Positions 29,853 through 55,813 of a DNA stretch of 64,000 nt are shown here, piece by piece. Position 1 is the stretch's first letter. Each line of letters opens with the position of its first letter. The position numbers and the translations under genes were made by a program. The stretch is from contig JAJRWF010000048.1 in the NCBI GenBank assembly GCA_024276905.1, positions 34,283 to 98,282 on the forward strand. Direction: 5' to 3'. The notes beneath the pieces are model-generated. The model saw only the letters and a program-made list of their open reading frames with translations. It was not told where the DNA came from and did no database searches. Source of the DNA: Deltaproteobacteria bacterium. Its GTDB lineage: Bacteria > Desulfobacterota > Desulfuromonadia > Desulfuromonadales > Geopsychrobacteraceae.

Positions 29853-30452
29853 ATGCTCGAAATCGATCTGCGTCAGGACCTTTATGGCTTCTTTTCCCGG
29901 GTGTTCAGTTATCCGGACCAGGCTCTGCTCGAAACACTGGTGAAAGACATGACACTGGTGGCGAATTCCTTGTCGGCAGGGTCTCAGCAATTGTTGTCTG
30001 TCCCCTCACTGAGAGAACTTGAGGTCAGTTATACAGAGCTTTTCATCAGCCGGTTAGGAGGTGTTCCCGTTCCCCCCTATGGTTCAGTGTATCTTGAAGA
30101 CGAGAGGCAGTTGATGGGACAGACCAGCCTCTGCGTGCAACGTGCCTATGAAGATGAGGGTCTGAGCCACCCGGAAGGGGGGGAGCCTCCCGATTTTATT
30201 GCGACCGAGTTGGAGTTTCTTTATTATCTGGTCGGGCGCGAGATCGACGCTTTGGTACAGGAGGATCTGAACGCTGCCCGTATTGCCCATCAGCGGCAGG
30301 TCGATTTTTGTCACACTTTGTTGCAACCCTGGATAAAAAAATTCTGTCTACGGATATTGCAGGCTGCAGATGCTGCTCCATTGTACCGCTGGTCAGCGGA
30401 GATGCTGATGTTGTTCTGTTGCCTCGAGGAAGAACTTTACGGCGCTTCCTGA
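29853..30452 (+). CDS. TorD/DmsD-family molybdoenzyme chaperone
   Basis: YGFFSRVFSYPD, PVPPYGSVYLEDERQLMG, PPDFIATELEFLYYLV. Confidence 0.85.
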   Translation: MLEIDLRQDLYGFFSRVFSYPDQALLETLVKDMTLVANSLSAGSQQLLSVPSLRELEVSYTELFISRLGGVPVPPYGSVYLEDERQLMGQTSLCVQRAYEDEGLSHPEGGEPPDFIATELEFLYYLVGREIDALVQEDLNAARIAHQRQVDFCHTLLQPWIKKFCLRILQAADAAPLYRWSAEMLMLFCCLEEELYGAS

Positions 30453-30887: not shown

Positions 30888-31211
30888 ATGAAAATGATGA
30901 AGATTCTGATTGTGGCAATGGCGATGGTTTTTTCTTCAACCTTGGTATTGGCTGTCGATGGAGGTAATTCGCGCAAAGGAAAATATCTCTATAAAAAAAG
31001 CTGTAAGCCTTGCCATGTTGATGGTGCTGAAGGGGGTGAATTGACCCCGTTGTCAAAAACCCAGAAACAATGGGACCGCTTTTTCAATAAAAACAAACAC
31101 AAGAAAAGCCCCGATGCCTTGGGCAAGTTCACCGAAAAGGATCTCAAGGATATCAACCAGTTCTTGTTTGACCACGCTGTTGACTCCGATCAGCCGGAAA
31201 CCTGTGGTTGA
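30888..31211 (+). CDS. Periplasmic monoheme cytochrome c
   Basis: Signal peptide; YKKSCKPCHVDGAEGGELTPL CxxCH heme motif; good RBS. Confidence 0.85.
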   Translation: MKMMKILIVAMAMVFSSTLVLAVDGGNSRKGKYLYKKSCKPCHVDGAEGGELTPLSKTQKQWDRFFNKNKHKKSPDALGKFTEKDLKDINQFLFDHAVDSDQPETCG

Positions 31212-32807: not shown

Positions 32808-35009
32808 GTGTCAGGATTGATCAATAAAAAATTGAGTCGCCGGCGTTTTCTCGGAACTTCTACCTGTGCACTGGCTACCGCAACGGTAGGGTCACAGGCC
32901 AGAGTACTTAAGGCGTTGGCCGTGTCCGGGGAGGTTGCCGCGCCGAAACTGAACGGAGGCAAAGATGTTTTTACCGCCTGCGGCATGTGTGTCAACAAGT
33001 GTGGTGTTATCGCCCGGGTCCGGGATGGTCGAATTCACAAGCTTGATCCGAATCCCGAGTATATCAAGAGTCGCGGGATGCTCTGCGCGCGAGGCAATGC
33101 CGGTATCAAGGTGATTTATGATCCGGACCGCCTCAAGTATCCCCTGATTCGCGCCGGGAAGCGTGGTGAAGGGAAGTGGCGGCGCGCGAGCTGGGACGAA
33201 GCCCTTGATCTGGTCGGCAAGAAAATGAACGAGATTGCCGAAAAATATACCCGGGCCGGGATGATGTTCGCTTCGACCGAAGGAACCTTTCAGGAGCACT
33301 TCTTTCTGCAGTTGGCCGAGTGTTTCGGTTCGCCGAATACGGTACGTCATCCGACGCTCTGCCTGTCGTCTAATATTCAGGGATTCAGTGCGACTTTCGG
33401 TACAAACCCAACACCCGATGTGCTGAACGCTGATTACATTATTATGAGTGGTGCCAATCGCAGTGAAGCGTTGATTACCCCCGATTCGATTGATCAGCTC
33501 AAAGGCGACGGCGGTCGTCGCAAACTGGTCTATCTCGATCCACGTTTCACCAAAACAGCCTCCAAGGCTGATGAATGGTTCCCGATCAAGCCTGGGAGTG
33601 ACATGGCTTTTATTTTGGCGCTGACCAATGTGATCGTCAGTGAGGGGTTGTACGCTAAAGAATTCATCGAGGAGATGACGGTTGGTTTTGATCAACTTGT
33701 GCCACACATCAAGCCTTACACTCCGGAGTGGGCAGCCACAGAAACCGAAATCCCGGCAGAGGATATCCGCCGAATTGCTCGAGAGTTTGCCAACGCTGCG
33801 CCAAGGGCAGTTTATTACCAGGGACGGCGTTCGTCGTTTTTTGACAATGACACCCAAATGCGCCGTGCAATGGCGATCCTTAATGCTGTAATCGGCAACT
33901 GGGACACCGCAGGCGGTCTGGTGCCGAATACCAAGATCAAGCTTCAGAAGCACGATTACCTGGCACCCTGGTACGATGATGTCCCCGAACGTCTCGATAG
34001 TGGCAGTGTCACTTTTTTGTCAGAAAAAGATGGGTCATGGACTGCTTTTCGTGATCGGGTCCTTGCCGGTAAGCCCTATCCGGTCAAAGGGATGATGATC
34101 TATAAGCAGAACGTCGTGATGTCGGTGCCCAACCGAGCTAAAACCCTGAAAATGATGGAGCAGATGGATTTTATCTGCACAATCGATATCGCCATGAGTG
34201 ATACCGCCTGGTATTCAGATGTGGTCCTACCCGAGGCGACCTATCTCGAACGGCAGGATCCTCTTGAATCGCTGGCCGGGATATTGCCGGTGGTTGCTTT
34301 CCGTCAGCCCTGTGTTGAGCCATTGTTTGAAAGTAAGCCAAACCTCTGGATCATGCAGAATCTGGCCAGGCGTCTGGGTGATGAGGTGGCTGCAACGTTT
34401 GATTTCACTATCGATGAGCACATTCATCACCAGGTGAGCAAGAACCCCAAAATTCTTAAGGACCTCAAGAATAAGGGGGTTCACTATATGAAAGTTTTAC
34501 CGACCTATGGTTTAACCCGCGGGAAAAGGCTCAGAACAAAAACAGGTAAGATTGAACTCTATTCGGCCAACTATGCTCGAAAGGGCCTCGACCCTTTACC
34601 GGTTTATACCAGGCATGAAGACGTCCCTGCGGGTAAGTTTCGTTTGATCGTCGGACGTAGTGCTATTTTTACCCACGGAACCACCGCCAATAATGCCTAT
34701 CTGCATGACATCATGCCGGAAAACACTCTGTGGCTAAATACTCTCTCGGCCCAAAAGGCCGGTTTAAGCGACGGACAGTTGGTCAAGGTGAAAAGCCGGG
34801 TTGGAGAAGGAACTCTCAAACTTGAGGTCACGGACAAGATTCGTCCTGATTGTGTTTACATGGTGCATGGATTTGGGGTTCTCTCCAAGGGGCAGTCATT
34901 GATCCATGGCCGCGGCGCCTGTGATGCCGCCCTGATTGAAGACAAGATCGAGCCGATCTCCGGCAATGTCGCCATGCACCAGACCTTTGTCGAAGTCAGC
35001 CCCGCTTAA
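32808..35009 (+). CDS. Molybdopterin-dependent oxidoreductase catalytic subunit (PsrA/PhsA/SrrA-like), Tat-exported
   Basis: SRRRFLG Tat motif, CGMCVNKCGVIARVRDG...GMLCARGNAG Fe-S site, C-terminal molydopterin dinucleotide-binding domain; GTG start with RBS. Confidence 0.88.
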   Translation: MSGLINKKLSRRRFLGTSTCALATATVGSQARVLKALAVSGEVAAPKLNGGKDVFTACGMCVNKCGVIARVRDGRIHKLDPNPEYIKSRGMLCARGNAGIKVIYDPDRLKYPLIRAGKRGEGKWRRASWDEALDLVGKKMNEIAEKYTRAGMMFASTEGTFQEHFFLQLAECFGSPNTVRHPTLCLSSNIQGFSATFGTNPTPDVLNADYIIMSGANRSEALITPDSIDQLKGDGGRRKLVYLDPRFTKTASKADEWFPIKPGSDMAFILALTNVIVSEGLYAKEFIEEMTVGFDQLVPHIKPYTPEWAATETEIPAEDIRRIAREFANAAPRAVYYQGRRSSFFDNDTQMRRAMAILNAVIGNWDTAGGLVPNTKIKLQKHDYLAPWYDDVPERLDSGSVTFLSEKDGSWTAFRDRVLAGKPYPVKGMMIYKQNVVMSVPNRAKTLKMMEQMDFICTIDIAMSDTAWYSDVVLPEATYLERQDPLESLAGILPVVAFRQPCVEPLFESKPNLWIMQNLARRLGDEVAATFDFTIDEHIHHQVSKNPKILKDLKNKGVHYMKVLPTYGLTRGKRLRTKTGKIELYSANYARKGLDPLPVYTRHEDVPAGKFRLIVGRSAIFTHGTTANNAYLHDIMPENTLWLNTLSAQKAGLSDGQLVKVKSRVGEGTLKLEVTDKIRPDCVYMVHGFGVLSKGQSLIHGRGACDAALIEDKIEPISGNVAMHQTFVEVSPA

Positions 35010-35036: not shown

Positions 35037-35591
35037 ATGAAAAACAAACGCTTCGCCATTGTTCTTGACACCCGGCGGTGCATCGACTGTAAGGCATGTA
35101 CCGTGGCCTGTAAGGCAGAAAATGATGTTCCGCTGGGGTCTGAGAACTATCGTAACTGGGTGGGTGAGGAAAAGCTGCGCGGCCGCTATCCAAACCTCGG
35201 ACAAAGCTATACCCCCAGCCAGTGTCAACATTGCGGGAATGCGCCCTGTGCCCATGTTTGCCCGACCGGAGCTACCGAAATCAACCCGGACGGGATCGTA
35301 CATGTTGTGGAAGAAAAGTGCATCGGGTGCAAGTATTGTATGACGGCCTGTCCCTACAACGCGCGCTATTACAACGAAGAGATTGAAGCAGTCGACAAGT
35401 GCACCTTCTGTACCCAGCGAGTTTATACCGGACGCGTGCCAGCTTGTGTTTAAACCTGTCCGACCAAGGTACGGGTTTTTGGTGATCTTAACGATCCTCA
35501 AAGCGAGGTTTCTAAACTGTTGGCTAAATATCCCACGCGGGTTCTTAAAAAATCCCAGGGAACTGAACCGTACCTGTTCTACATCATTTAG
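35037..35591 (+). pseudogene. PsrB-like four-cluster ferredoxin subunit interrupted by in-frame TAA at 35451-35453
   Basis: Frame continues after TAA as TCPTKVRVFGDLNDPQSEVSKLLAKYPTRVLKKSQGTEPYLFYII*, the expected C-terminus of this family; the next subunit has its RBS at the distal stop. Confidence 0.85.
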
Positions 35592-35602
35592 GAGGCAATC
35601 CA

Positions 35603-36751
35603 ATGACTGTATTAACGCATCGTCCGAGCTTTGGGATCTGGGTGGGACTGTTAGCCATCGGTGTCATCATCGGGATTGTCGGTGTCGGTAATGTGCTGCT
35701 CAACGGGCATTCTGCCGTCTATAATGTGACGCGTGAAATCCCTTGGGGTATCCTGATTGCGACCTACGTTTTCCTGGTGGTTTCAAGCACCGGTCTCTGC
35801 CTTGTCTCAAGCCTCGGGCACGTTTTCGGGATAGAGAAATTTGAATTTATCGGCAAGCGGGCCATCATTCTGGCGATCCTGACCTTGCTTTGCGGATTCG
35901 GTGCTATCGGCATGGAGTTGACTCATCCGATTCGCATGGGTATTTATGCGATTATAAGCCCCAATTTTTCCTCGGCAATCTGGTGGATGGGGACACTATA
36001 CGGTCTCTATCTGGTCCTGCTGTGTGGAGAATTTTATTTCCTGATGAAGGGCATGCACAGAGGTGCTTTTGCCCTGGGGATGATTGGGTTCATTGCGGCG
36101 GTCAGTGCACACTCCAATCTTGGTGCGGTCTTCGGGCTGCTGGAGGCCCGACCTTATTGGCACGGGTCTTTTCTGCCGATTTATTTTATCGTTTCGGCGT
36201 TGGTTTCAGGCGGAGCGATCGTCAGTATGATCGTTTATTTCAACCATAAGGCGAGCGGGGAACCCATGCCGCAGAGGTACGAGGATTTCATGGCGACCCT
36301 TGGTAAGTTACAGGCACTTTTTTTGATGATTCTGGTTTTCTTTGTTGTCTGGAAAGTTATTCCCGGAATATACGGACATCCTCCCGAGAAATATGAAGCG
36401 ACAGTTGCGGTTCTGAATGGTCCGCTGGCATTCAACTTCTGGTTTTTTGAGGTGCTGCTCGGGCTGGTTATTCCGGTCATACTGCTGCTGAACAAGAAGA
36501 CCCGAACCCCCTACGGGGTCATGATGGCCGGCTTATCATCGACGGTCGGGATTTTCTTTATGCGCTATGATCTGGTTATTGCGGGCCAGCTGGTGAGTAT
36601 GCGTGAAGGAACAGCAGATCTGTTGGGCGGCCTGTTACGGTATTCTCCTTCAATGACTGAAATAGCGATCGTTATTGGGGCTATCAGCACCTGCCTGTTG
36701 CTTTACACTATCGCCGAACGGATGCTGCCGCTGGCCGGACGGGAGCGCTGA
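35603..36751 (+). CDS. NrfD/PsrC-like polytopic membrane quinone-interacting subunit
   Basis: Multiple TM helices; follows Fe-S subunit; ...GIEKFEFIGKRAIILAILTLLCGFGAIGMELTHPIRMG. Confidence 0.85.
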   Translation: MTVLTHRPSFGIWVGLLAIGVIIGIVGVGNVLLNGHSAVYNVTREIPWGILIATYVFLVVSSTGLCLVSSLGHVFGIEKFEFIGKRAIILAILTLLCGFGAIGMELTHPIRMGIYAIISPNFSSAIWWMGTLYGLYLVLLCGEFYFLMKGMHRGAFALGMIGFIAAVSAHSNLGAVFGLLEARPYWHGSFLPIYFIVSALVSGGAIVSMIVYFNHKASGEPMPQRYEDFMATLGKLQALFLMILVFFVVWKVIPGIYGHPPEKYEATVAVLNGPLAFNFWFFEVLLGLVIPVILLLNKKTRTPYGVMMAGLSSTVGIFFMRYDLVIAGQLVSMREGTADLLGGLLRYSPSMTEIAIVIGAISTCLLLYTIAERMLPLAGRER

Positions 36752-36826: not shown

Positions 36827-37375
36827 TTAAAACGATGGTGGAGTGCAGGCACTGACAATTTCACAGCGGTCTTTGCCGGTGTTGCGAAACCGGTGCGGCA
36901 GTCGGCTGTCAAAGGAATAGGCATCGCCAGCACCCAGGATAAACGTCTGGCCACCGACTGTCAGTTCAATCTGGCCACGGACCACGATACCGCCCTCCTC
37001 GGATTCGTGTCGCAGCATCTCCTTGCCGCTGTCGGCGCCGGGTTCGATCCGCTCATGGATGATCTGCATCGCTTTGCCCTTGAGGTTCGATCCAACCTGG
37101 CGAAAAGAAAATCCTTGTCCACCGATTTCTTGCAGTTCGTCGGCCCGGTAAACAATCTTGTCCTGAACGGGGGTGCCGAAAGTAAAAAACTCGGTGAGGG
37201 ACATGGGGATTCCATCGAGGATTTTTTTAAGGGTTGCGACCGAGGGGCTGCTGTGGTTTTGCTCGATCATGGAGATAATGCCATTGGTGACATCGGCTCG
37301 CCTGGCCAGGGCACGTTGAGAAAGACCGTAGAGTTCGCGAATGGTTCGTAGTCGCTCACCAATATTGATATCCAT
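36827..37375 (-). CDS. XRE-family regulator with C-terminal cupin domain
   Basis: GERLRTIRELYGLSQRALARRADVTNGIISMIEQNHSSPSVATLKKI plus cupin E.EEGGIVVRGQ...FDSRLPHRFRN. Confidence 0.88.
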   Translation of the reverse strand: MDINIGERLRTIRELYGLSQRALARRADVTNGIISMIEQNHSSPSVATLKKILDGIPMSLTEFFTFGTPVQDKIVYRADELQEIGGQGFSFRQVGSNLKGKAMQIIHERIEPGADSGKEMLRHESEEGGIVVRGQIELTVGGQTFILGAGDAYSFDSRLPHRFRNTGKDRCEIVSACTPPSF

Positions 37376-37435
37376 AATAAATTTCCTCTGAATTCCGGCG
37401 GGAAAGGGGGCGATTCTGAATGGCTTGACAGCCTT

Positions 37436-38065
37436 CTAGTTTTTTATTCCAATCCCTTTCAGGATTACGTGAGTGACAAATTTAGCCGCATCCTCAAAAT
37501 CTGAGGCCTCGAGTTTTGATCTGCCCAGGACAATTTCAATCTGCGAAGAGAAGTCAGCGTAGGTCTGGGTCGCGGCCCAGATCATAAAAAACAGGTGAGC
37601 CGGGTCGATCGGGTCCATCTGCCCTTCGGCAATCCAGACGTTTACCAGTTTTAAATCCGCTTCGAGATGTTGGAGCAGCCGTGCCTTCAGCTCGTTCGAT
37701 AGGTGTGGAGCGCCGCTGATGATTTCATTGGCGTAAACCTTAGAGCCGTTCGGTCGTGTTCTCGAAAATTCGATCTTGCCACGAATATAGTGTTCCAACT
37801 TGGTTGCGGGGTCTTTTCCCGGTTGATCAAGCAGGGCCATGAACTCCAGCCAGTTATCCAGAACACTTTCGAGAACTTTTTGATAGAGCAGTTTTTTTGA
37901 CGGGAAATAATAGAGCAGGTTTTGTTTCGACAGCCCGGCACGTTCCGCAATCAACTCCAGGGGGGCGCCGTTATAGCCGTGCTGGGCAAAAATTTCTTCA
38001 GCGGCACTCAGGATATGAAGCTCATTGTGTTGCCTCTTGGTCTCTTTTGTGCCGTTCCTGATCAT
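37436..38065 (-). CDS. TetR-family regulator, RutR/YcdC-like
   Basis: ILSAAEEIFAQHGYNGAPLELIAERAGLSKQNLLYYFPSKKLLYQKVL HTH; RutR-like C-terminal domain (MIWAATQTYADF). Confidence 0.85.
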   Translation of the reverse strand: MIRNGTKETKRQHNELHILSAAEEIFAQHGYNGAPLELIAERAGLSKQNLLYYFPSKKLLYQKVLESVLDNWLEFMALLDQPGKDPATKLEHYIRGKIEFSRTRPNGSKVYANEIISGAPHLSNELKARLLQHLEADLKLVNVWIAEGQMDPIDPAHLFFMIWAATQTYADFSSQIEIVLGRSKLEASDFEDAAKFVTHVILKGIGIKN

Positions 38066-38328
38066 CAGTAAATCCCGTTGTGCCTTATTTTGGAGAGGGG
38101 CCCGTTCGTGTTTTGCCGCTTTGCGGACTCTGGAGTAATAACATCGTTCGGCATTTTTGGCGATACCTTAAACATTTGCCGGGCCAAAGATCGTTCAGCT
38201 GTTGAAAATTATAAACGATTCTTCAGTTAAACTCACTATAAAATTATCGATATTCTTGGCATAAGATGGGCGTTTTCTTATCAAGTGGCGGAGGAAAACC
38301 CTTTGCTGTGGTTGTTTTGCGGGGGTAC

Positions 38329-38360
38329 ACTTATTTTTTACCAAAAGGTAAAAAATAAGT
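38329..38360. promoter_or_regulatory. Large perfect palindrome upstream of the pyrimidine operon promoter
   Basis: ACTTATTTTTTACC-AAAA-GGTAAAAAATAAGT, 14-bp arms. Confidence 0.65.
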
Positions 38361-38388
38361 TGACACTGTTCCTTGTCCGCTCTATTTA
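38360..38388 (+). promoter_or_regulatory. Sigma70-type promoter of the pyrimidine cluster
   Basis: TTGACA - 17 bp - TATTTA. Confidence 0.6.
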
Positions 38389-38405
38389 TTGACCGAACGA
38401 TAAAT
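38384..38405. promoter_or_regulatory. Candidate TetR operator overlapping -10
   Basis: ATTTAT-tgaccgaacg-ATAAAT inverted repeat. Confidence 0.45.
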
Positions 38406-38634
38406 CAAACATTGTTATTAATGGGCCATTGTGTGATCTGACCTCATCGGCTCTTTCAGGGTTGGCGGTGGTGGCTGTATTTGCGGAATAGACTAAGAAC
38501 GAAAGATTTCGCTGGTCTTTTACCACTGTCGTGGCGGCAGATCCATTCCCGCCGGAGCTTTGAGCTACATCCCCTCTTTCACAGGGAAGGAGGGTCGGCT
38601 TTGATTGCTAACTTGAGTTGCTATGGAGGAACAA

Positions 38635-40146
38635 ATGTCTGATCGAAGGCCTGATAATGCGCCATCAAAGATCGTCCAGGCAGGAGAATTTTTTGAACTG
38701 GAAGCGGGTCAGGATGTTACTGACAGCCCCCTCTACAATGAGGACATTGCCCCGGCCAAAATCGAGGAACGGAGCTGGAATACCTGGAACGTCGCGGCCC
38801 TCTGGGTCGGTATGGCGATCTGCGTGCCGACGTACACTTTGGGCGGCGTATTGACCGCTTATTTCGGTCTGAGTGTGGTTGAGGCGCTGCTCGCCATCTT
38901 CCTGGCTAACGTGATCGTACTGATTCCCCTTACCCTCAATGCTTTTCCCGGGACAAAATACGGAATCCCGTTTCCGGTCCTTCTGCGCTCTTCCTTCGGT
39001 CTGATCGGCTCCAATGTCCCGGCATTGGTCCGGGCATTGATTTCCTGCGGTTGGTTCGGCATTCAGACCATGTTCGGCGGCATGGCGATTCACCTGCTCT
39101 TCTCGGCACTCTCCAGTGGCTGGGCGAGCCTTGGTAATACTGGTATCGTCATCGGGTTCTTTATTTTCTGGACACTGAATATCTATGTGGTCATCCGGGG
39201 TGCGAATTCGATCAAACTGCTGGAGACCCTGGCCGCGCCCATGCTGCTGGCGGTTGGTGTCGGTCTGATTTTCTGGGCGGCACCGCAGACCGATCTGAGT
39301 GCGGTATTGAATACCCCGGCCAATCGACCTGAAGGGGCTTCGGTATGGAGCTATTTCTTCGGCGGGTTAACGGCGATGGTCGGCTTCTGGGCCACGCTTT
39401 CTCTCAATATCCCTGATTTCAGTCGCTATGTGAAATCGCAGAAAGATCAGATTGTCGGCCAGATCATCGGGCTGCCCTTGACCATGCTGCTGTTTGCTTC
39501 GCTGGGAGTTATCCTGACTGCAGCGTCAAAGACCCTGGTTGGTGAAACGGTAGCCGACCCGATCAGCCTGATCGGTAAAATTGACAGTCCTTTCTGGGTT
39601 GTTGTTTCGATGATTATCATCATTATTGCCACGATCTCCACCAATACCGCAGCCAATATTGTTTCCCCCACCAATGACTTCCAGAATGTTTTTCCGAAAT
39701 TGATCAATTCCAAGCGTGGGACCCTGCTGACCGGGTTGGTCGGGATTCTGCTGATGAGCTGGGAGTTGTTGATCAAGCTGGGTTGGGTTGTTTCGGATGT
39801 CAGCGTGGAGAGTATGTATTCCAACTGGTTGCTCGCTTACTCAAGTTTGCTCGGTCCGATTGCCGGAATCATGATTGTTGACTATTTCCTGGTGCGCAAA
39901 CAGGAGCTTGACCTGATCAGCCTGTACAAGAAGGGCGGTGTCTATCCATCCTTTAATCCTGCCGGGCTGATCGCGTTTTTCGTTCCGGTTGCCCTGACAG
40001 TGTTATCCATGAAGGTCGATGGGTTGAGTTGGTTCTACAGTTACGGTTGGTTCACCGGTTCGGCATTAGGTGGTGTCATTTATTACTTTGCGGCTTCGCA
40101 GTTGGGTACCGGGAAGCTTCCGGCTGCTGAATCTCAGGAGTGTTGA
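38635..40146 (+). CDS. NCS1-family nucleobase:cation symporter
   Basis: 12-TM NCS1 signature (NVAALWVGMAICVPTYTLGG...FGIQTMFGG...LNIPDFSRY...PTNDFQN); RBS ggagg before ATG 38635. Confidence 0.92.
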   Translation: MSDRRPDNAPSKIVQAGEFFELEAGQDVTDSPLYNEDIAPAKIEERSWNTWNVAALWVGMAICVPTYTLGGVLTAYFGLSVVEALLAIFLANVIVLIPLTLNAFPGTKYGIPFPVLLRSSFGLIGSNVPALVRALISCGWFGIQTMFGGMAIHLLFSALSSGWASLGNTGIVIGFFIFWTLNIYVVIRGANSIKLLETLAAPMLLAVGVGLIFWAAPQTDLSAVLNTPANRPEGASVWSYFFGGLTAMVGFWATLSLNIPDFSRYVKSQKDQIVGQIIGLPLTMLLFASLGVILTAASKTLVGETVADPISLIGKIDSPFWVVVSMIIIIIATISTNTAANIVSPTNDFQNVFPKLINSKRGTLLTGLVGILLMSWELLIKLGWVVSDVSVESMYSNWLLAYSSLLGPIAGIMIVDYFLVRKQELDLISLYKKGGVYPSFNPAGLIAFFVPVALTVLSMKVDGLSWFYSYGWFTGSALGGVIYYFAASQLGTGKLPAAESQEC

Positions 40147-52996: not shown

Positions 52997-55813
52997 TCAG
53001 GATGTAGGAAAATAGCGTTTCAGGAACTGGCCGGTATGGGACTGCTCGCAGCCTGCGACCTGCTCCGGTGTTCCTGCGGCGATTACTCGGCCGCCGCCAC
53101 TGCCGCCTTCGGGCCCCAGGTCCAGCACATGGTCTGCGGTTTTGATCACATCGAGATTATGTTCGATGACCACGACCGTGTTGCCGCCGTCGACCAGCCG
53201 GTTGAGAACCTCAAGCAGTTTGTGGATATCGGCAAAATGCAGGCCGGTGGTCGGTTCATCGAGGATATAGATGGTGCGTCCGGTTGCGCGTTTGCCGAGT
53301 TCGCGGGCCAGTTTGACCCGTTGTGCTTCGCCGCCGGAGAGGGTCGTCGCACTCTGTCCCAGTTTGATGTAGCCCAGACCGACGTCGCGCAGAGTCCCCA
53401 GTTTATTACTGATGCGCGGCAGGTTCTCCATAAAGCGGCTGGCCTGGTTGACCGTCATGTCGAGTAGTTCCGCAATACTTTTCCCTTTGTATTTGACTTC
53501 GAGGGTTTCGCGATTGTAGCGAGCGCCCCGACAGACTTCACATTCGACATAGACGTCGGGCAGAAAGTGCATCTAGATGCGAATAATGCCGTCGCCGCGA
53601 CAAGCTTCGCAGCGGCCGCCCTTGACGTTGAAAGAGAAACGACCCGGTTTATAGCCACGGATCTTCGCTTCGGGAAGCCGGGCGTAGAGCTCACGGATAT
53701 CGGTAAAAACACCGGTATAGGTTGCCGGGTTTGAGCGCGGAGTGCGGCCGATCGGGGATTGATCGATATCGATCACTTTGTCGAGTTGTTCCAGGCCGAG
53801 AATCTGCTTGACCGGTCCGGCCTTTTCACGGTTGCGATGCAGTTTCTGGGCGAGGGTCTTGTACAGGGTTTCGATGACCAGCGAGGATTTCCCCGAACCG
53901 GAGACGCCGGTGACACAGCTCAAAACGCCGAGGGGTATTTCAACATCGATCTCCTGCAGATTGTTGGCGCGGGCTCCCTTCAGCACGATTTTTCGTGAAC
54001 TGGTGCGTCGGTTCGGCGGGATTTCTATCTCAAGAGCGCCTGACAGATATTGCCCGGTCAGCGATTCCGGGCAGTCGACAACCTGTTGCGGTTGACCGGC
54101 GACCACGACCTCACCACCGTGAACCCCGGCCGCCGGACCCATGTCGATCAGGTGATCGGCGGCCAGCATTGTTTCTTCGTCATGTTCGACCACCAGTACG
54201 GTATTGCCGAGGTCACGCAAATTTTTCAGGGTTTCAAGCAGGCGCTGATTGTCGCGTTGATGTAGCCCGATGGAGGGCTCGTCAAGGATATACAGAACTC
54301 CCATTAACGATGAGCCGATCTGGGTTGCCAGACGGATTCGCTGGCCCTCGCCACCTGACAGGGTGCCGGAGGCACGGTCGAGGGACAGATAGTCAAGACC
54401 GACATGGCTTAAAAATCCCAGCCGGTCGCGAATCTCTTTAAGGATTCGTTGTGCAATTTCAGCCTGTTTGGCAGGGAGTTCGAGATTCCTGAAAAAATCT
54501 CCAGCTTCTGAAATTGCCATCGCGCAGACTTGCTGGATGTTCTTCTGCGCAATCTTTACATGAAGTGATTCGGGCCGCAGCCGTGCTCCTTCACAGCTCG
54601 GGCAGGGAACAACACTCATATACTTTTCGAGGTTTTCCCGAACGGTGTCAGAGTCGGTCTCACGATAGCGTCGTTCCAGATTCGGCAGCACGCCTTCAAA
54701 GGGTTTTTCGTAGTAATGACGACGTTCACCCTGATCGAAAAAGAAACGGATCTTCTCCTGCCCCGAACCCTGTAACAGTTTTAAACGAGCATTCTCAGGC
54801 AGTTTGGAAAAGGGTGTGCGCATGCTGAAATGATAGTGTTCGGCCAGGGCTTCAAGCAGCGCCTGGTAGTAGTACCCGGTGCGGCTATCCCAGGGCAGGA
54901 TTGCCCCCTCCCGCAACGAAAGTCCGGGATCGGGGATCACCTGTTCCACGTCGAAATAGTTACGCGTTCCCAGACCGCTGCAATCAGGGCAGGCTCCATG
55001 TGGATTGTTGAAGGAGAACATTCGCGGCGTGATTTCGGGGTAGGAAAGGCCGCAATCAATACAGGCATGTTTGACCGAGTAGAGCTGACCGGCAGTGTCC
55101 GGCTCCTCGATTCGTACCAGGCCGTCCGCGAGCTTGAGCGCAGTTTCAATCGAATCGGCCAGTCGGCTTTCGATTCCCGGCTTGATGACCAGGCGGTCGA
55201 CGACCACTTCGATACTGTGTTTGCACTGTTTGTCGAGGACGATTTCTTCCCCCAACTCATGCATCACGCCGTCGATTCGCACCCGGACAAAACCGTCGGC
55301 TTGCAGTTGTCGCAGCTCTTTGCGGTATTCTCCCTTACGTTCACGCACGACAGGGGCCATGACCATAAAACGGGTTTTCTCCGCGGCCTGCATGACCTGA
55401 TCGACGATTTGCTGTACCGTTTGCGAACTGATCTCCTGGCCGCAACGGTGGCAGTGAATCTGTCCGGCGCGGGCAAATAACAGGCGCAGATAATCATGGA
55501 TCTCGGTGACGGTACCGACGGTCGAGCGCGGGTTGCGCGAGGTGGTTTTCTGTTCGATGGAGATCGCTGGTGACAGGCCGTCAATCTGATCGACGTCCGG
55601 TTTTTCCATCTGCTCAAGAAATTGGCGGGCGTAGGCCGACAGGCTGTCGACGTAGCGTCGTTGCCCCTCGGCATAAATTGTATCGAAGGCCAGAGTGCTC
55701 TTGCCCGAACCGGAAACGCCGGTGATGATCACCAGTTTGTCGCGCGGAATGTCGATATCGATATTTTTCAGATTGTGTTCACGGGCGCCGCGGATGCGGA
55801 TCTCTTCAATCAT
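52997..55813 (-). pseudogene. uvrA: UvrA excinuclease ATPase subunit, interrupted by in-frame TAG at 53573-53575
   Basis: Both halves in one frame: ...[56 protein letters not shown]...; normal UvrA reads GxI.[V/I]EMHFLP across this point. Confidence 0.9.

Follow-up and report, generated by a model that had tools for sequence, protein, structure and literature searches.

The closest described counterpart of the locus examined here is the polysulfide reductase PsrABC of Thermus thermophilus (PDB 2vpw-2vpz); the iron-sulfur subunit PsrB carries four [4Fe-4S] clusters (PMC8076601). The likeness lies in a near end-to-end alignment of PsrB, 16 cysteines arranged in four quartets, the gene order A-B-C and an NrfD-type membrane subunit, and the catalytic subunit matched Thermus PsrA (2vpw_A) better than any other PDB entry. 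The B subunits differ in a stop at codon 139, which belongs to the gene in this assembly. Thiosulfate reductase PhsABC is also similar, PhsA (NF012032) being the top NCBIfam match of the catalytic subunit with 536.6 bits, but this is under the curated cut-off of 694 bits and places the protein outside PhsA as defined there. Among solved structures, the arsenate respiratory reductase ArrAB (6cz7_B) ranked second for the B subunit, but the ArrA and ArrB scores were far under the NCBIfam cut-offs.

The window, meaning the whole stretch of 64,000 nucleotides that was analysed, is part of contig C175 of a draft assembly (G000; 3.08 Mb in 180 contigs, 92% complete). The relevant features are as follows.

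29853–30452, + strand: TorD/NarJ-type chaperone of molybdoenzymes (PF02613; TIGR03482 below cut-off)
30888–31211, + strand: small c-type cytochrome (PF13442)
32808–35009, + strand: PsrA/PhsA-type molybdopterin catalytic subunit with a twin-arginine-like leader and a probable GTG start (PF00384/PF01568/PF04879; best NCBIfam match PhsA, below cut-off; 2vpw_A, E = 1.7e-130)
35037–35453, + strand: PsrB-type 4x[4Fe-4S] subunit, truncated frame of 138 aa, up to the TAA (profile match, cysteine count, 2vpw_B alignment)
35451–35453, + strand: in-frame TAA; native codon Glu, GAA in the nearest relatives (orthologue codons)
35454–35591, + strand: rest of the PsrB-type gene, 45 codons with C141 (the 16th Cys) and the C-terminal extension, then TAG (frame intact)
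35603–36751, + strand: NrfD/PsrC-type membrane subunit (PF03916 NrfD, E = 5.2e-32)
53573–53575, − strand: in-frame TAG at a conserved Glu of uvrA (comparison with relatives)

The PsrB-type gene lies beside genes for a molybdenum catalytic subunit and an NrfD membrane subunit, the arrangement of a PsrABC-like operon, and its homology predicts an ordinary iron-sulfur subunit of a PsrABC-like molybdoenzyme. Upstream of the catalytic-subunit gene are genes for a sigma-54 activator, the TorD-like chaperone, the small cytochrome c and a DUF3373 protein. Downstream, at 36827–40146 of the window, is an apparently unrelated module made up of a PuuR-like regulator, a RutR-like TetR regulator and an NCS1 (allantoin/nucleobase) transporter.

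A preliminary description of this DNA had reported a PsrB-like frame interrupted by a TAA, with continued reading to a distal TAG, and the positions were confirmed. The frame begins with an ATG at 35037, meets the TAA at 35451–35453 (codon 139) and reaches the TAG at 35589–35591, giving 184 codons if read through. The ribosome-binding site said to abut the distal TAG is an AGGAGG that overlaps it and precedes the ATG of the NrfD/PsrC gene at 35603. The PsrB-like identity was borne out by the alignment of residues 5–183 of the read-through product with residues 3–178 of Thermus PsrB (2vpw_B; E = 8.5e-53), which covers almost the full length. The cysteines form the quartets 15, 18, 21, 25; 63, 66, 71, 75; 95, 98, 101, 105; and 122, 125, 137, 141. 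The spacing of the last, C122-x2-C125-x11-C137-x3-C141, is the C-x2-C-x11-C-x3-C pattern that had been proposed. As also proposed, the TAA removes the last ligand and the C-terminal extension: it falls between C137 and C141, C141 is the sole cluster cysteine lost, and the final 45 codons go with it. Sixteen cysteines are reached only with read-through of codon 139, and the frame as written has 15.

The native residue, which the preliminary description had left to an alignment of orthologues, is Glu. The two nearest relatives, at 90% and 88% identity, have GAA at codon 139, and a codon-level comparison of nine close orthologues gave GAA or GAG at this position throughout. CAA, GAA and AAA had been named as one-step sources of the TAA; a one-step origin stands, and among the three the orthologues show GAA. 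The residue aligned to codon 139 was Glu in 37 of the 80 most similar public loci and mainly Thr, Ser or Asn in the others, and none of the 80 had a stop there. The frame was never interrupted in the close relatives found, and none of the listed orthologues ends at codon 138. A search of 60 genomes with the PsrB-type protein returned, among the well-matching hits listed, one further stop, a TAA at a different position in a DsrO-like paralogue from another genus of the family (G021). In this iron-sulfur protein (L122, G021:C93, − strand) the TAA lies in the first cluster motif (CIDC*RC), and the homologue in G007 has GAG (Glu). Two other sources of the stop were considered and rejected. A difference between sequence collections was set aside because the whole-genome copies equal the public contigs for ten relatives over the stretches compared, and selenocysteine or pyrrolysine at codon 139 because the codon is TAA and the orthologues have no stop there.

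The codons downstream of the stop are intact, as first suggested. Compared with the nearest orthologue, the 45 codons after the stop had an amino acid identity of 0.87, dN of 0.079 and dS of 0.90, and the part before the stop had an identity of 0.91, dN of 0.044 and dS of 1.12. In the remaining orthologue comparisons too, dN was higher downstream than upstream. These values point to purifying selection on the codons past the stop and to an absence of decay. Because the downstream codons show no decay, the change from GAA to TAA appears to be either very recent or present in the assembly alone.

To place the stop in context, approximately 1.0 Mb of G000, about a third of the assembly, was surveyed for stops by comparison with the genes of two congeners, G003 (complete) and G007 (close), and with other loci. 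This comparison superseded a six-frame tblastn search with unfiltered ORFs, which gave mostly antisense frames. A reference-free scan for stops based on codon bias missed known sites and returned mainly gene boundaries, though it pointed to fliG, rhlE and aspS. In 303 homology-covered stretches (100,751 aa) there were six in-frame stops with near-identical flanks, five TAA and one TAG, all at Glu. Besides the PsrB-type gene itself, these stops at Glu were found in uvrA, in an oppD-like ABC-transporter ATPase (L223; at the Walker-B Glu, LLIAD*PTT), and in a further ABC ATPase (L183), a cytochrome-like protein (L185) and a binding-protein-like gene (L187), where the liv-type assignment of the ATPase and the names of the other two come from the appearance of the sequence. 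Two further stops, in an ABC ATPase (LSGG*LQRV) and in fliG (both in L224), align to Glu in solved homologues. Weaker or different cases were a TAG at L187 2452 where G003 has Gln, a TAA at L224 16966 where G003 has Ser and G006 likewise has a TAA in the corresponding stretch, and a TAG at a variable position of an rhlE-like gene. Matches to ABC_tran contained a TAA in 3 of 56 cases in G000 versus 0 of 144 in G003 and G007 together, and stops were absent among the response-regulator matches listed. A single candidate frameshift was found in the approximately 1.0 Mb surveyed. The stop in the PsrB-type gene represents more than chance yet is not unique. The earlier treatment of the stop as a property of one gene did not hold, as similar stops lie in uvrA, ABC ATPases, fliG and the essential aspS of the same assembly.

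The sole full-length copy of aspS found in G000 (L219 4580, + strand; G000:C150:3497-5245) is interrupted by an in-frame TGA, and three congeners show no stop over the matching stretch. A short aspS-like fragment with an in-frame TGA is also present (G000:C138:13617-13781, − strand). Aspartyl-tRNA synthetase is indispensable to the cell, and since it cannot be lost the simplest view of these stops is that some of them, at the least, are sequence errors. Among the 60 genomes, aspS has an in-frame stop in G000, G005 and G045 (TAA in the latter two), and uvrA, which is free of stops in nearly all relatives, has one in G000 and a TAA in G014. In-frame stops are therefore found in several assemblies, an essential gene included, at roughly one per 10,000–25,000 codons.

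We consider that the TAA in the PsrB-type gene is probably a G to T error at one base, made in the assembly or consensus of a fragmented draft. Similar stray stops hit other conserved genes of this draft genome, the essential aspS among them, so an error of sequence rather than a mutation of the living cell is the most likely reading of these stops. Recent nonsense mutation, readthrough and base-call error had all been put forward initially; the stops in uvrA, the ABC ATPases, fliG and aspS favour the last and leave the other two with less support. A G to T error in the consensus would have turned GAA into TAA at codon 139, as one among several in-frame stops of the assembly. The codon of the organism would then be GAA, and the subunit would be made at its full length of 184 aa with four [4Fe-4S] clusters. 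By analogy with its relatives, it would pass electrons between the quinone pool of the membrane and the molybdenum subunit.

The GAA or GAG of the close orthologues, the undecayed downstream codons and an excess of D>Y changes all support an error. D>Y (GAY to TAY) is the matched sibling of the change at codon 139, and it was seen 8 times versus 2 in reverse, as a G>T process would give. By arithmetic on codon counts, Glu codons account for about 22% of the one-base routes to a stop at equal rates and about 57% if only G:C to T:A changes are allowed, and among codons that a single G>T step turns into a stop they form the largest class. All 8 of the 8 well-resolved stop sites are at Glu, which exceeds either share and favours a G>T process or a Glu-specific cause. 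Sequencing artefacts of the G>T type that arise from 8-oxoguanine are documented (PMC12390751). The base change is the same as that proposed here, and this route to a consensus error would additionally need low depth.

Against an error, substitution errors at such a frequency with almost no frameshifts are unusual. A general excess of G>T missense changes was also looked for in three tests with small numbers, and the outcome was mixed: D>Y fits, but the wider comparisons do not. G>T missense changes specific to G000 numbered 46 versus 48 specific to G007 at codon position 1, and 9 versus 10 at position 2, and radical G>T missense changes numbered 23 versus 33 in reverse. As there is no excess apart from D>Y, random error does not fully explain the preference for Glu.

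The main rival to a sequence error, ranked second, is a real nonsense mutation that arose very recently in the population sampled. At 138 aa, the product would lack one [4Fe-4S] ligand and the C-terminal extension, and the PsrABC-like enzyme would probably be inactive. GAA to TAA is a single step, the operon is otherwise intact and the codons past the stop have not decayed. An organism with other reductases could do without one respiratory module, and the genome holds more iron-sulfur subunits of this superfamily. However, many simultaneous recent nonsense mutations would be needed, one of them in the only full-length copy found of the essential aspS. A mutator arising from loss of MutY or MutM was rejected because mutY and mutM are both present and intact, and the usual causes of G:C to T:A mutation were thus not seen. 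We regard a recent mutation as less likely than an error.

Decoding of UAA and UAG as Glu on some occasions, by natural suppression or partial reassignment, would also give a full-length protein. It would account for the eight stops of G000 with conserved flanks, at which the native residue taken from congeners or solved homologues is always Glu, for the TAA in the DsrO-like gene of G021 where G007 has GAG, and for the lack of a general G>T missense excess. However, no UUA or CUA anticodon was seen among the tRNAs read of the 35 located (in a genome that is 92% complete), and TAA and TAG end 25% and 17% of 823 genes, so neither is avoided as a terminator. The aspS stop is a TGA, one TAG site is Gln and one TAA site is Ser in the reference, and Glu codons are in any case the class most readily turned into stops by G>T. 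We therefore regard such decoding at this codon as improbable. More improbable still is the broader form, in which this bacterium, and perhaps other members of the family, translates intragenic UAA and UAG as Glu at a low rate but keeps both codons as terminators in other places. Should reads of one isolate uphold the preference for Glu, they would indicate decoding of UAA/UAG as Glu, which to our knowledge would be new for bacteria. Least probable of all is a 138-aa subunit that functions despite the truncation, one cluster having three ligands or a replacement for the fourth, since orthologues never end there and the 45 downstream codons are conserved and under selection, even though some related subunits, such as ActB, carry a [3Fe-4S] cluster (PMC8076601).

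Returning to a sequence error as the preferred reading, the stop in the PsrB-type gene holds little interest unless the T is confirmed in raw reads. More generally, a lone clean in-frame stop in a conserved gene of such drafts speaks only weakly for gene loss, given that conserved and essential genes in these assemblies are broken by stops at the rate given above.

One TGA in the assembly is of a different kind. An AhpD/carboxymuconolactone-decarboxylase-like protein (L228 7685, + strand) has a TGA at the second Cys of a CxxC motif (CEP*MEHYL). It is probably a selenoprotein, because the stretch matching this protein contains one TGA in each of G003, G006 and G007.
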